Part shown: piece by piece, positions 12,481 to 29,343 of the stretch
Position numbering within the stretch: position 1 is the first letter of the stretch
Layout: each line of letters begins with the position of its first letter
Assembly (NCBI GenBank): GCA_030645915.1
Contig: JAUSNO010000023.1
Coordinates: 1 to 64,000 of the forward strand
Length of the DNA stretch: 64,000 nt
Direction of reading: 5' to 3'
Source: Undibacterium sp.
GTDB lineage: Bacteria; Pseudomonadota; Gammaproteobacteria; Burkholderiales; Burkholderiaceae_D
Translations under genes and position numbers: made by a program
Notes under the pieces: generated by a model
Databases searched by the model: none
What the model was told of the DNA's origin: nothing
The model's input: the letters and a program-made list of their open reading frames with translations, nothing else

Positions 12481-12723
12481 ATGATCCTAGATTCCTTAGT
12501 TGGACAGGTTTGAGTGTGCATTTTTCCGGTTTTCTGGCAAGGCGCGACGACGAAGCAACCTTCACGTTGTTAGGAGGAGCAACGAAGCCAGAGAGCCGGA
12601 AAAACGTGCAATCGAACCTGTAGCGCTCTCACCCAAATGGTGAAAGTGTTAAATGCCGCTGTTTTTAATCAATCACGCACTTATCGAAGCTGATGAGCGG
12701 TCAACAGAGGAATCTAGGATTAT
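12481..12723. mobile_element. MITE-like element, copy 1 (233 bp plus flanking ATNAT repeats)
   Basis: The element spans 12486-12718, bounded by CCTAGATTCCTTAGTTG and its inverted counterpart CAACAGAGGAATCTAGG. Flanks are ATGAT (12481-12485) and ATTAT (12719-12723), a 5-bp duplication with one mismatch. The interior is a long imperfect hairpin with an AGGAGG sequence in a CGTTG/CAACG loop. Copies 2 and 3 at 15.2 and 28.6 kb are nearly the same and in the same orientation. No transposase is encoded. Confidence 0.88.
12706..12710 (+). promoter_or_regulatory. Ribosome-binding site of glcE supplied by MITE end
   Basis: AGAGG lies in the right terminal repeat of the element, 11 nt before the glcE ATG at 12722. 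The A and T of that start codon belong to the flanking ATTAT repeat. The same arrangement recurs at msrA2. Confidence 0.65.
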
Positions 12724-13786
12724 GGACAGCATACTCGACGAATTTCGCCATCGTATCCATGCCGCTACTGCCGGGCATAGCCAGCTATGCATACAAGGCG
12801 GTGGCAGCAAACAATGGTATGGGCAAGAAGCGCAGGGCGAGGTGCTCAACACCAGCGCCTACCGTGGCATCATTGCCTACGAACCTACCGAGCTGGTGAT
12901 CACCGCGAGGTGTGGTACCCCACTGGCAGAAATCGAGGCGGTGCTTGATCAGCAGAACCAGATGTTCGCTTTTGAACCGCCGCATTTTGGCGCTGCAGCG
13001 ACGATAGGTGGCGTGGTTGCCGCAGGTCTATCCGGTCCGCGTCGAGCCACTGCGGGTGCCGTGCGCGACTTTGTGCTGGGGGCGACTTTAATGGATGGTC
13101 GTGGCGAAGTATTGTCGTTTGGCGGGCAGGTCATGAAGAACGTCGCGGGCTACGATGTCTCACGCTTGCTGGCAGGCTCCATGGGTTGTCTGGGTTTGCT
13201 GCTCGATGTATCCATCAAGGTCTTGCCGAAACCCTTTGCGGAAACCACCCTGGCGTTTGCCCTATCGGAATCAGATGCCATCGACCGCATGAATGCATGG
13301 GGTGGACAAGCCTTGCCTATCTCCGCAAGCAGCTGGCAGGTAGGGCGGCTGATGTTGCGCTTGTCTGGTGCAGAGGCGGCGGTACGCGCAGCCAGGCAAA
13401 AACTAGGTGGTGAAGAGGTCGCCAGCGCTGATGCCTACTGGACATCAGTGCGTGAGCAAAGTCACGATTTTTTTGCCCAGGATGACGAGCATGGCTTGTG
13501 GCGACTGTCATTGCCATCAGCGACCTCCGCCTTGCGCCTGACTGGCAAGACCATGATCGAATGGGGCGGGGCGCAACGCTGGCTATTTAGTGACGAGCGG
13601 GCACAAACCGTACGCGATATGGTCAGCCAGACCGGCGGTCATGTCACCTTGTTTCGCGGTGGCGATAAAGCCAGCGGCGTTTTTACCCCGTTGCCGGCGC
13701 CATTGCATAAAATTCATCGCAACCTGAAAAACAGCTTTGACCCGGCAGGCATTTTTAATCCCGGCCGCATGTATCCCGACCTATAG
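12722..13786 (+). CDS. glcE: Glycolate oxidase, FAD-binding subunit GlcE
   Basis: Second flavin subunit of glycolate dehydrogenase, 354 aa. It shows the PCMH fold of the FAD family: ELVITARCGTPLAEIEAVL, then PHFGAAATIGGVVAAGLSGPRR and FGGQVMKNVAGYDVSRLLAGSMG. The C-terminus DPAGIFNPGRMYPDL is the usual family ending. The ATG at 12722 is chosen because the upstream frame lies inside the MITE; the residues before MDSILDEF are encoded by the element and are not family sequence. glcF follows after 9 nt. Confidence 0.94.
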   Translation: MDSILDEFRHRIHAATAGHSQLCIQGGGSKQWYGQEAQGEVLNTSAYRGIIAYEPTELVITARCGTPLAEIEAVLDQQNQMFAFEPPHFGAAATIGGVVAAGLSGPRRATAGAVRDFVLGATLMDGRGEVLSFGGQVMKNVAGYDVSRLLAGSMGCLGLLLDVSIKVLPKPFAETTLAFALSESDAIDRMNAWGGQALPISASSWQVGRLMLRLSGAEAAVRAARQKLGGEEVASADAYWTSVREQSHDFFAQDDEHGLWRLSLPSATSALRLTGKTMIEWGGAQRWLFSDERAQTVRDMVSQTGGHVTLFRGGDKASGVFTPLPAPLHKIHRNLKNSFDPAGIFNPGRMYPDL

Positions 13787-15159: not shown

Positions 15160-15404
15160 ATTATCCTAGATTCCTTAGTTGGACAGGTTTGAGTGTGCGT
15201 TTTTTCGGCTTTCTGGCAAGGCGCGACGACGAAGCAACCTTCACGTTGTTAGGAGGAGCAACGCAGTTCAGAGAGGCGGAAAAACGTGCAATCGAACCTG
15301 TAGCGCTCTCACCCGAATGATGAAAGTATTAGTTACCACTATCGTCAAACCAATCAAGCACTTATCGAAGTTGATGAGCGGTCAACTGAGGAATCTAGGA
15401 TTAT
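15160..15404. mobile_element. MITE-like element, copy 2 (235 bp plus ATTAT duplication)
   Basis: The element spans 15165-15399 with the same terminal repeats as copies 1 and 3. It is flanked by a perfect 5-bp duplication ATTAT (15160-15164 and 15400-15404). Its right end touches the stop codon of the convergent dienelactone hydrolase gene. Orientation is the same as copy 1, so glcE-glcF lies between two direct copies. Confidence 0.92.
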
Positions 15405-16282
15405 TACGCTAAATTAGCCTTGAACCAGGCCAGGCAACGCGACCAGCCGTCTTTGGCATCCGCCTCAACATAACTGGGGCGATAGTCAGCGTGGAAGGCG
15501 TGGCCAGAATTAGGGAACACAACAAACTCTGATTTGTTGCCCGCTTTGGTTAGCGCTGCTTTCATCTGCTCAACTGTTTCGACTGGTATGCCGGAATCTT
15601 TTGCACCATACAAACCGAGTATTGGCGCCTTCAAACTGGCCGCAATGTCGATCGGGTTTTGTGGTGAGAGTGGCGTCATCGCCCCCACCAATCGGCCATA
15701 CCAGGCAGCACCTGCTTTGACCGATGGATTATGCGCGGCATACATCCAGGTAATCCGTCCGCCCCAGCAAAAGCCGGTGATCGCCAGTTTGTCAGTGTTA
15801 CCGCCATTTACCTTCGCCCACGCCACCACGGCATCCAGGTCGCTCATGACTTGCGCATCGGGCACCTTGGAGATGACTTCCTTGATCAGCTCGGCGATAC
15901 TGGGATATTTGCTGGCGTCGCCCTGACGGATAAATAACTCTGGTGCCAGCGCCAGATAACCTTGCTTGGCAAAACGGCGCGCCACATCGGCAATGTGCTC
16001 GTGTACACCAAATATTTCAGAAATCACCAGCACCACCGGCAAATTAATTTTGCCTTCGGGCTGAGCGCGATATACCGGCACCTGTTGTCCATCGATCGTC
16101 AGTGTGATCACGCCGGCAGTCAAGCCGATGCTGTCGGTAGTCACCAATGTGTTCGCACTCAGCGGCAAAGCGGCTGCGGCAAAACCAACACCCACTGCAG
16201 TTTGAATAAAAGTACGCCTGGAATTGCCTTCGCCAAACAATGATCGCCCTACCAAACTATCGAAATCGTGTTGATGTTTCAT
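15404..16282 (-). CDS. Dienelactone hydrolase family protein (Tat signal)
   Basis: An alpha/beta hydrolase of 292 aa. The nucleophile elbow GFCWGGR carries cysteine, as in carboxymethylenebutenolidase, with the acid in YGAKDSGIP and the histidine in NSGHAFHADYRPSY. The N-terminus has a twin-arginine motif SRRTFIQ (about residues 21-27) followed by a hydrophobic stretch, so export by Tat to the periplasm is likely. The secreted DLH subgroup has poorly defined substrates. No catechol-degradation genes are nearby. Confidence 0.88.
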   Translation of the reverse strand: MKHQHDFDSLVGRSLFGEGNSRRTFIQTAVGVGFAAAALPLSANTLVTTDSIGLTAGVITLTIDGQQVPVYRAQPEGKINLPVVLVISEIFGVHEHIADVARRFAKQGYLALAPELFIRQGDASKYPSIAELIKEVISKVPDAQVMSDLDAVVAWAKVNGGNTDKLAITGFCWGGRITWMYAAHNPSVKAGAAWYGRLVGAMTPLSPQNPIDIAASLKAPILGLYGAKDSGIPVETVEQMKAALTKAGNKSEFVVFPNSGHAFHADYRPSYVEADAKDGWSRCLAWFKANLA

Positions 16283-26883: not shown

Positions 26884-27423
26884 ATGACGACTTATTCAAC
26901 TGAAATCGCCATTCTGGGCGGCGGCTGCTTCTGGTGTACCGAAGCGGTGTTCCAGCAAATACGCGGTGTGTTCAAGGTGGAATCCGGTTACGCAGGCGGT
27001 GCTGCGCCCAATCCGACCTATGAACAAATCTGCACCGGCAAGACTGGCCATGCCGAAGTGGTGCGGCTGGAGTTTGATCCGGCTGTGATCAGCTACCGCG
27101 AGCTATTGGAGATTTTTTTCACGATCCATGATCCGACGACCTTAAACCGCCAGGGCAATGACGCCGGCACGCAATATCGGTCGGTGATTTATTTCCATGA
27201 CGCCGAACAGCAGGCGATAGCCAAGGATGTGATGGCGAAAATGGCTGAGGTGTGGGATGCGCCTATCGTGACCGAATTGACTGAGGCACCGATGTTTTAT
27301 ATCGCCGAAGCCTACCACCAGAATTATTTCCGTCAGCATCCGCAGCAAGGCTATTGCTCGGTGGTGGTGGCGCCCAAGGTAGCCAAGGCGCGCAAGCTGT
27401 TTGCCAGCAAATTGATCGCTTAA
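26884..27423 (+). CDS. msrA: Peptide-methionine (S)-S-oxide reductase MsrA, paralogue 1
   Basis: Repairs oxidised methionine in proteins. The 179-aa sequence has the catalytic GGCFWCTE (Cys15), the GTQYRSVIYF motif and a resolving cysteine in GYCSVVVAPK. Start ATG is preceded by AGGAAAGAACC. A second msrA lies 1.4 kb downstream with an XRE regulator between them on the opposite strand; the two proteins are clearly homologous but differ at many positions, so the duplication is old or the second copy was acquired. Confidence 0.95.
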   Translation: MTTYSTEIAILGGGCFWCTEAVFQQIRGVFKVESGYAGGAAPNPTYEQICTGKTGHAEVVRLEFDPAVISYRELLEIFFTIHDPTTLNRQGNDAGTQYRSVIYFHDAEQQAIAKDVMAKMAEVWDAPIVTELTEAPMFYIAEAYHQNYFRQHPQQGYCSVVVAPKVAKARKLFASKLIA

Positions 27424-27442
27424 CTTTCTCAACATCGACCCC

Positions 27443-27519
27443 GCCAGCACGCACTATCCATGCGGGTTTCCAGCCTGCCTGGCCTGCAAGCCACGCCCAG
27501 CTTGCGTGTTGGCCTTGCC
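27443..27519. repeat. Dispersed palindromic repeat family A, reversed orientation
   Basis: CGCACTATCCATGCGGGTTT then CCAGCCTGCCTGGCCTGCAAG: the inverse complement of the right half of the other family A copies. It lies just past the msrA1 stop. Confidence 0.75.
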
Positions 27520-27560
27520 TATTTTTAGATTTTTAATTCCAGCGCGCCTATTTCGCCAAT

Positions 27561-28337
27561 TTAGGCGCGGTTTTTACTCTTTTTCTCTTCGTATTGCTCG
27601 ATATAGTCCTTGCGCACCAGCGATTTGAATTGCTTCGGTAGCCATGGCCGCGCTGCCAGCATGAAGCTCATCCTGTATTTTTCTTCAAACGGCAGTTTGG
27701 CGTCTTCCTGATGCTGTTCAGAGAACTCTCTGGCAACCTGCTTCATGCGGTTCAATAAGGCGGCGACCGATTGTTTGGATAGCATCACGTTAATCAGGCG
27801 CATCAATTCATGGTCGCCATCAAAATTGGAATCAAGATATTCGGCATAGGCCTGATCACGGAAATTGCTCTGGATAGGCCCGTTGGGTATCCAGCGGAAG
27901 GTGCGCGATACCAGCAATTTAACGCGGTTGTTGGGCAATAATTCGAGGAAACCTATTTTATCGAGCCGCAACAGATACTTGATGACTTCAACTTCGCTGA
28001 TCTCATAGATCTTGATCATCTGCTCGACAGACAGCAAATTGAGCGCCGACACCGCGACGACAAATTCTTTTGGGTCGCTGATGATTTCTTTTTCCTGATC
28101 GAAGGTCAATTCGGAGATCAGCGACTCTTCACCGGAATTGAGCGCCAGGTCACGCAAGCTGATGGCGGTCGCCTGCAGGATTTCATCCAGCCTTTGCAGG
28201 GTGAAGTTTTTTTGCGAAAACATGCGTTTGACGCTCGCTTCCGACATGGAAATACGCGTTGCCAACTCGGCGTAGGTGATGTTTCTGGCTTTAAGTTCGC
28301 GTTTAAGGGAATCAACCAGCGTGGTGGCTTTTGGCAT
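27561..28337 (-). CDS. XRE-family transcriptional regulator
   Basis: A 258-aa DNA-binding protein. A helix-turn-helix of the Cro/C1 type is at about residues 15-65 (ITYAELATRISMSEASVKRMFSQKNFTLQRLDEILQ). The larger C-terminal part contains a winged-helix-like stretch (SVEQMIKIYEISEVEVIKYLLRLDKIGFLEL) and a helical region; it is not a peptidase or cupin I recognise. It lies between two msrA genes on the opposite strand, so control of one or both is possible but unproven. Confidence 0.8.
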   Translation of the reverse strand: MPKATTLVDSLKRELKARNITYAELATRISMSEASVKRMFSQKNFTLQRLDEILQATAISLRDLALNSGEESLISELTFDQEKEIISDPKEFVVAVSALNLLSVEQMIKIYEISEVEVIKYLLRLDKIGFLELLPNNRVKLLVSRTFRWIPNGPIQSNFRDQAYAEYLDSNFDGDHELMRLINVMLSKQSVAALLNRMKQVAREFSEQHQEDAKLPFEEKYRMSFMLAARPWLPKQFKSLVRKDYIEQYEEKKSKNRA

Positions 28338-28569
28338 GGATTTTTAAATTGTAAAAAAGTATTAAAAAATGATACACGAAGCCACATCGCCCGCAACTCT
28401 TTATCTAATGATTGTCAATATATCATGTTGCCTTAATAATCCGTCTCGATAACAAAGTGTCGAAGCGGCTTATTGGATACTCGGCCCAAATGAGCCGATG
28501 TAAGGTCATAAAAATACCCGGATTTCGATTAAATTAATGAGACTGGTAATTGATGGATCGGGATGACAA

Positions 28570-28814
28570 ATCATCCTAGATTCCTTAGTTGGACAGGTTT
28601 GAGTGTGCGTTTTTTCGGCTTTCTGGCAAGGCGCGACGACGAAGCAACCTTCACGTTGTTAGGAGGAGCAACGCAGTCCAGAGAGGCGAAAAAACGTGCA
28701 ATCGAACCTGTAGCGCTCTCACCCAAATGGTGAGCGCATTAAGTACTATTATTCTCAAATCAATCAAACACTTATCGAAGCTGATGAGCGGTCAACTGAG
28801 GAATCTAGGATCAT
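28570..28814. mobile_element. MITE-like element, copy 3 (235 bp plus ATCAT duplication)
   Basis: The element spans 28575-28809 with terminal repeats CCTAGATTCCTTAGTTG and CAACTGAGGAATCTAGG. A perfect 5-bp duplication ATCAT (28570-28574, 28810-28814) flanks it, and the right copy reads into ATCATG, the msrA2 start codon. Inside, the arms around TTTTTTCGGCTTTCTGG and CCAGAGAGGCGAAAAAA pair, with AGGAGG (28661-28666) in the apical CGTTG/CAACG loop. Confidence 0.92.
28798..28801 (+). promoter_or_regulatory. Ribosome-binding site of msrA2 supplied by MITE end
   Basis: GAGG in the right terminal repeat of the element, 11 nt before the ATG at 28813. Identical spacing to glcE. Confidence 0.65.
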
Positions 28815-29343
28815 GGCGTTAGAGATCGCAACTTTGGGTGGTGGCTGCTTCTGGTGTACCGAGGCGGTGTTTCAGCAGATACGTGGAGTCAAGAGTACCG
28901 AACCTGGCTACGCCGGCGGTCATGTGAATTACCCTAGCTCTGAAGCCGTCAGCGAGGGGTATACCGGTCACGCAGAAGTAGTGCGCTTGCATTTTGATTC
29001 TGCGATAGTGAGTTACCGCGCCTTGCTGGAGCTGTTTTTTGCCGTCCACGATCCGACCACGATGAATCGTCAGGGCAATGATATCGGGACGCAATATCGA
29101 TCGGTTATTTATGCCCATACGCCAGAGCAGGAGGCAACGGCGCGGCAGGTGATGGCTGAAGTGGCGCGTGCGTGGGATGCGCCGCTGGTGACAGAATTAA
29201 GCCATGCGGCGAGTTTTTATCCGGCCGAAGACTATCACCAGAATTATTTCAAGCTGAACGGACAACACGAGTATTGCACTCTGGTCGTCGCGCCGAAAGT
29301 GGATAAGGCCAGGAAATTTTTTACTAAAAAAATGGCGGCTTAG
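28813..29343 (+). CDS. msrA: Peptide-methionine (S)-S-oxide reductase MsrA, paralogue 2
   Basis: A 176-aa MsrA with catalytic GGGCFWCTE (Cys12), GTQYRSVIYA and the resolving cysteine in EYCTLVVAPK. The start codon sits in the target duplication of MITE copy 3, so its native upstream region has been displaced by 240 bp. It converges on pdxH across a hairpin. Confidence 0.95.
   Translation: MALEIATLGGGCFWCTEAVFQQIRGVKSTEPGYAGGHVNYPSSEAVSEGYTGHAEVVRLHFDSAIVSYRALLELFFAVHDPTTMNRQGNDIGTQYRSVIYAHTPEQEATARQVMAEVARAWDAPLVTELSHAASFYPAEDYHQNYFKLNGQHEYCTLVVAPKVDKARKFFTKKMAA

Follow-up and report, generated by a model that had tools for sequence, protein, structure and literature searches.

A MITE with IS1380-like ends at the start codon of msrA2 and its possible role as a donor of translation-start signals

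Mobile elements are already known as promoter donors to genes, and excerpts from the literature describe MITEs and insertion sequences (IS) as supplying promoters, terminators, small RNAs or pieces of open reading frames (ORFs). The IS1380 family, with ISEcp1 and ISPme1, resembles the repeat analyzed here in its 5-bp target duplication, and the MITE ends, which begin CCTAGATTC, have their first nine bases in common with the ISEcp1 ends (IRL CCTAGATTCTACGT, IRR ACGTGGAATTTAGG; PMC7864471). The repeat differs from that family in being a 235-bp MITE without transposase and in carrying a putative ribosome-binding site, whereas the known effects of IS1380 elements on their neighbors are, in the available portion of the source, those of promoters (PMC9330008). 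In Neisseria, the Correia elements (CREE) are MITEs as well, and their target duplication looks like the -10 hexamer (same source), but this is a transcription signal rather than a start codon with a Shine-Dalgarno (SD) motif, and both ends and target are different. MITEAba12 of Acinetobacter, another MITE, has start codons close to its ends and putative promoters that point outward, yet it makes a 9-bp duplication and has ISAba12 ends, and the excerpts of PMC6382973 do not describe a coincidence with gene starts. Pneumococcal BOX and Rickettsia palindromic elements are comparable in being small repeats that encroach on reading frames (PMC3049150, PMC10969869), but they supply ORF parts or in-frame inserts, and the BOX ORFs are reported there to be without good SD candidates (PMC3049150). 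In the open-licence literature, as represented by such excerpts, we found no MITE or IS that gives a gene its ribosome-binding site through a terminal repeat at a duplicated start codon. If an insertion did provide ribosome-binding site and start codon in one step, transposition could rewire translation while leaving genes unbroken, and insertion between two operon genes directly at a start codon would be explained.

The window, by which we mean the whole 64,000-nucleotide stretch of DNA analyzed, holds the element in question at 28575-28809 (plus strand). The original prediction had described it as a MITE flanked by a perfect ATCAT duplication, with a GAGG of its terminal repeat 11 nt upstream of the msrA2 ATG, and all of this is borne out. 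The element is short (235 bp), present in copies across the genome and without transposase, the sole ORF of at least 60 aa that overlaps it and lies mostly inside it being one of 77 aa, and it is bounded by imperfect 17-bp terminal inverted repeats, CCTAGATTCCTTAGTTG on the left (28575-28591, plus) and CAACTGAGGAATCTAGG on the right (28793-28809, plus), the latter facing msrA2. The two ATCAT copies occupy 28570-28574 (no strand assigned) and 28810-28814 (plus), and the 22-nt arms 28570-28591 and 28793-28814 that combine repeat and duplication are 91% complementary. Further inside, a 34-nt left arm (28593-28626, plus) is 82% complementary to a right arm (28678-28711, plus), and the element is predicted to fold into one long hairpin, at -106.1 kcal/mol versus -61.1 +/- 4.3 kcal/mol for shuffled sequences (z -10.4). 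The SD-like GAGG lies at 28798-28801 (plus) and the ATG at 28813. A consensus search for a promoter or terminator within the MITE found none, 28480-28860 contains no sigma-70-like site where 0.5 would be expected, and an Rfam search with the element returned a single match (E 0.93), far below the gathering score, that we took as chance.

The adjoining gene, msrA2, encodes a 176-aa peptide methionine sulfoxide reductase (28813-29343, plus strand; Pfam PMSR, 5.4e-60), and an independent gene-calling script also places its start at 28813. The named relatives of MsrA2 (66% identity at best) make Undibacterium the probable genus. As had been proposed, the msrA2 start codon lies partly inside the target duplication, the right copy reading on as ATCATG and contributing its final two bases as the AT of the codon. 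Comparison with relatives without the element, suggested alongside that proposal, proved informative: in the congeners G022 and G006 the same neighborhood is uninterrupted, with AATCATG at the insertion point, and msrA2 starts at this homologous site and continues in the same frame; the empty-site ATCAT equals the left duplication copy in the window. The MITE inserted at the msrA2 start codon, and the duplication regenerated the codon. Because the empty site reads AATCATG in two congeners, the codon predates the insertion and was kept by the ATCAT duplication, so that, as had been supposed, the gene survived with new sequence placed in front of it. SD pairing in the uninterrupted leaders is strong in G006 (AAGGAGAG, -7.1 kcal/mol) and weaker in G022 (-3.8 kcal/mol), and the displaced old leader in the window is intermediate (-4.4 kcal/mol). 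The two msrA genes of the window stand in tandem within 26884-29343, with a helix-turn-helix-like gene (27561-28337, minus strand) between them, and G022 and G006 likewise have two msrA matches on one contig, 1.7-1.8 kb apart.

Within its own genome (4.17 Mb, 39 contigs) the MITE matches 29 places, 10 of which span query bases 6-240 or more with 87-100% identity; an eleventh covers bases 4-246 at 75%, and the remainder are shorter pieces. The window contains three whole copies, the second (12486-12718, plus; flanks ATGAT and ATTAT) before a glcE-like gene and the third (15165-15399, plus) away from any start codon. The right duplication of this third copy, ATTAT (15400-15404), overlaps the TAA of a minus-strand gene called at 15404-16282, so that stop codons, too, are met by the palindromic, AT-rich target (15400-15406). 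DNA similarity detects the family in 10 of 41 genomes searched. Within the genus, 13 of 43 genomes carry its end pattern, and across the bacterial family the first of the two end types described below (type 0) is present in 14 genomes out of 392 and in 6 genera out of 44. Among the copies of the window's genome, two at contig ends (L011 and L012, at the ends of C9 and C8) break off at an identical base where a different repeat (GTGTAGTCGGGGTTTCAGG...) takes over, to all appearance an element that inserted into the MITE and collapsed at the contig ends, and a third (L026, C10 20284-20405) is a 122-bp short version before a GST gene.

The sequence WTNAW flanks 176 of the 193 ends counted, and the 5-bp flanks are identical in 51 of 76 complete elements, which, with the empty sites, supports target duplication. 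The original prediction had gone further and seen an element adapted to land at ATNATG. A G follows ATNAT at 18 of 54 type-0 ends and 8 of 44 type-1 ends versus 27% of background sites (type 0 versus background, p 0.29), and since it is not enriched, ATNATG finds no support as a target preference. Target choice itself thus appears not to be directed at start codons, and the excess reported below would stem from selection among insertions.

Two end types within one family amount to a natural experiment on the role of the SD-like motif. Type 0 reads outward CAACTRAGGAATCTAGG, with GAGG in 61 ends, AAGG in 20, GGGG in 15 and other tetranucleotides in 5 (n = 101), whereas type 1 reads CAACTGCCGTTTCTAGG and is without a GAGG-like motif. 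The type-0 GAGG falls 8 nt before an ATG at duplication base 1 and 11 nt before one at base 4. Pairing energies were calculated with anti-SD letters presumed to hold for the window's genome: the msrA2-facing end reaches -5.6 kcal/mol, a value that 34% of 517 genes match or surpass and that ranks in their top third, while a type-1 end would give +0.7 kcal/mol at an msrA2-like offset (90%, among the weakest tenth) and -2.7 kcal/mol directly before the ATG (66%). The 11-nt spacing is rare, accounting for 3 of 56 GAGG motifs upstream of 516 genes.

To score as a coincidence with a gene start, an end had to carry, at duplication position 1 or 4, an ATG from which an ORF of 100 aa or longer starts. 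Two nulls served for comparison, one built from WTNAW sites in 864 kb of the window's own genome that leave called genes whole (5-mer-weighted; 5033 sites, 660 genes called by our own script) and a local one drawn from the surroundings of the elements themselves. Ends with fewer than 400 bases of flank were left out (6 of 199), the expected number was set to zero for ends with a non-WTNAW duplication (17 of 193), 10 of the 16 ends of G150, a genome from a different genus of that bacterial family, were included, and three type-1 insertions common to G015 and G057, as judged by their flanks, were counted unmerged. Over both genome sets, type-0 ends scored in 18 of 101 cases versus 6.1 expected from the own-genome null (p 8e-5) and 6.7 from the local null (p 2e-4), an excess of about 2.7-2.9 times in which the p values are only indicative, because position 1 (offset 0) joined the test after the histogram had been seen and both nulls were drawn either from the window's genome or from sequence around the elements. 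Type-1 ends, by contrast, scored in 3 of 92 cases versus 3.1 expected. The main set of 13 genomes gave 13/75 versus 4.4 for type 0 and 3/91 versus 3.1 for type 1, and the type-0 excess weakened when the next base was matched too (13/75 versus 5.5, p 0.004); a second set, mostly of other genera but including the congener G055, was marginal (5/26 versus 1.7-2.1, p 0.03-0.07), one of its five ORFs being without a Pfam domain. With the window's copies removed, type 0 stood at 16/95 versus 5.6 (p 3e-4), and at 10/95 versus 4.1 (p 0.01) for position 4 alone, the arrangement described in the original prediction. The two types differ directly (Fisher, p 0.001), also among ends that have an ATG there (18/35 versus 3/16, p 0.035), and counting by elements gives 17 of 63 for type 0 and 3 of 54 for type 1. 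Among the 13 scoring ends of the main set, neither side of the element was preferred toward genes (7 right, 6 left). The suggestion that such elements can become translation signals thereby gains statistical support, SD-like ends being in excess at ORF starts and type-1 ends not. One further type-0 end, with TTAAATGG (L361, contig C86 of G150), adjoins an ORF of at least 298 codons that starts at the last A of the duplication, at position 5 and so outside the test.

The 18 type-0 ends at ORF starts carry GAGG (13), AAGG (3), GGGG (1) or GTGG (1), and 17 of the ORFs contain a Pfam domain: ABC1/UbiB-like, PRTase, EamA, OsmC/YcaO, MFS, MacB/FtsX, LpxD, AdoMet decarboxylase, PMSR (msrA2), FAD-binding (glcE-like), HAD, solute-binding, GST, transthyretin-like, VTT/DedA-like, TatA/B and TssF; the eighteenth (102 aa) has none. 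Of the 18, at least the GST, transthyretin-like, OsmC/YcaO and HAD ORFs may truly start further downstream. The glcE-like gene behind the window's second copy (12722-13786, plus strand; FAD-binding domain) starts inside the right duplication (ATTATG). Nine relatives yielded no clean empty site for it, the window flanks themselves differing (ATGAT, ATTAT); seven of the nine start with ATGGA at this place, one locus is mis-positioned, and in another the alignment begins only at residue 5. The starts of tatB and lpxD, by comparison with relatives, were also struck by the elements. All 11 tatB relatives inspected start ATGAT[CT]GATATT, and in G195, aligned with four relatives, an element sits exactly between ...CTTCCC and ATGATC, its left copy altered to ATAAT; the tatB relatives are without SD at this place (-0.2 kcal/mol in the single one calculated). 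Upstream of lpxD, an essential gene, two relatives have an OmpH-like gene that stops 2 nt short of it, whereas in G053, a 70% complete draft with a single lpxD match, an element separates the two by 239 nt, with the upstream stop TAA in the left flank GTAAT and the lpxD start in the right flank (ATAATG); the empty site is not letter-perfect, relatives reading TAAAAATG and the G053 flanks GTAAT and ATAAT.

The reading that we prefer, and to which we give about an even chance as a whole, is that of WTNAW insertion, codon duplication and takeover by the SD-like motif of the end. An IS1380-type MITE inserted into AATCATG at the msrA2 start, the transposase target being a palindromic 5-bp WTNAW that is able to contain or overlap an ATG, and duplication of the target left a complete start codon adjoining the element. 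The outward end carries CTGAGG or CTAAGG 8 or 11 nt before such a codon, and this motif would replace the native ribosome-binding site. Insertions that sever a gene from its own leader would then stay harmless or help, and hence be kept. We infer that the motif may serve translation because the excess at starts is confined to type-0 ends; counting against such a role are its predicted burial in the hairpin, the rarity of the 11-nt spacing and the failure to recognize a promoter. As type-1 ends lie at expectation and not below it, loss of the native SD alone seems not to purge insertions, in which case the type-0 excess would mean an advantage rather than mere tolerance. More tentatively, and with somewhat more doubt than belief, the family could be viewed as a portable translation-start module, with a target that holds ATG, a regenerated codon and an SD 8 or 11 nt before it, whose insertions are tolerated or favored also at operon genes such as lpxD and tatB, and whose hairpin, by burying or exposing the SD, could make translation switchable.

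In a read-through transcript, where the two element ends are predicted to pair, the SD-like motif has a predicted unpaired probability of 0.00 at msrA2, tatB and lpxD and 0.07 at glcE, compared with 0.71 for the native leader of G006; in transcripts starting inside the element it is 0.05-0.27 at msrA2, and in the shorter ones 0.39-0.53 at glcE, tatB and lpxD. The fold may form late or be opened by ribosomes, the hairpin base may restore the old leader or an upstream stop, or the motif may be irrelevant. Its irrelevance would follow if start-site insertions were coincidental and neutral, WTNAW (as ATGAT or ATCATG) being common at starts, the SD-like bases being just transposase-binding sequence and the insertions being harmless because the duplication preserves the codon. 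Burial of the motif, the agreement of type-1 ends with expectation (3/92 versus 3.1) and a high background, in which 425 of 10066 permissible site-ends would score, all fit this account, but type-0 ends exceed two nulls and, weakly, the expectation in a second genome set, and we consider it unlikely, if a serious contender. We think it improbable that the element hairpin instead folds out in the mRNA and brings the old leader or an upstream stop beside the start, so that the native signal works. A hairpin is known to bring an SD near its start in phage T4, the whole-element fold is very stable (z -10.4), no element side is preferred (7 right versus 6 left; main set, n = 13), and at lpxD one duplication holds the upstream stop and the other the start, both immediately at the hairpin base; yet both end types should then be equally tolerated, whereas type 1 is without excess, and a clear SD that could be brought near is missing in the tatB and lpxD relatives. 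Least credible, to the point of being very improbable, is an outward promoter within the element that expresses the gene from a short transcript with its SD free. ISEcp1 and ISPme1 carry such promoters, according to excerpts of PMC9330008, and the motif is more open in the shorter glcE, tatB and lpxD transcripts, but it is still mostly paired in the short msrA2 ones, no sigma-70-like site was found in 28480-28860, and both element sides face genes equally.

Comparison of end and transposase sequences places the MITE family, in all probability, with the IS1380 elements. G150 carries type-0 ends together with a 1.8-kb IS (locus L402, 1126-2927) with a left end that matches the MITE end at all 17 bases and a right end that shows 3 mismatches, and the 578-aa ORF of this IS matches PF13701 at 73.7 bits (cut-off 34.7) and the NCBIfam IS1380 transposase model NF033539 at 142.6 bits, below its strict cut-off of 180; the flanks of the IS itself, TTGAA and GTCAT, do not match. 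In the 39-contig draft of the window's genome we found neither a PF13701 match nor a relative of the L402 transposase, so the copies there may be stranded, unless the draft misses the transposase. Among the 43 genomes of the genus, only G055 holds a relative of the L402 transposase (31% identity). The IS1380 matches of G055, G007, G046, G005 and G023 were set aside as partners, the ends at the 7 loci inspected being unlike those of the MITE. At the right end of the L402 element (2911-2927), the transposase ORF terminates in a TAA with which, in the alignment, the right terminal repeat begins (TAACTGAGGAAATTAGG).
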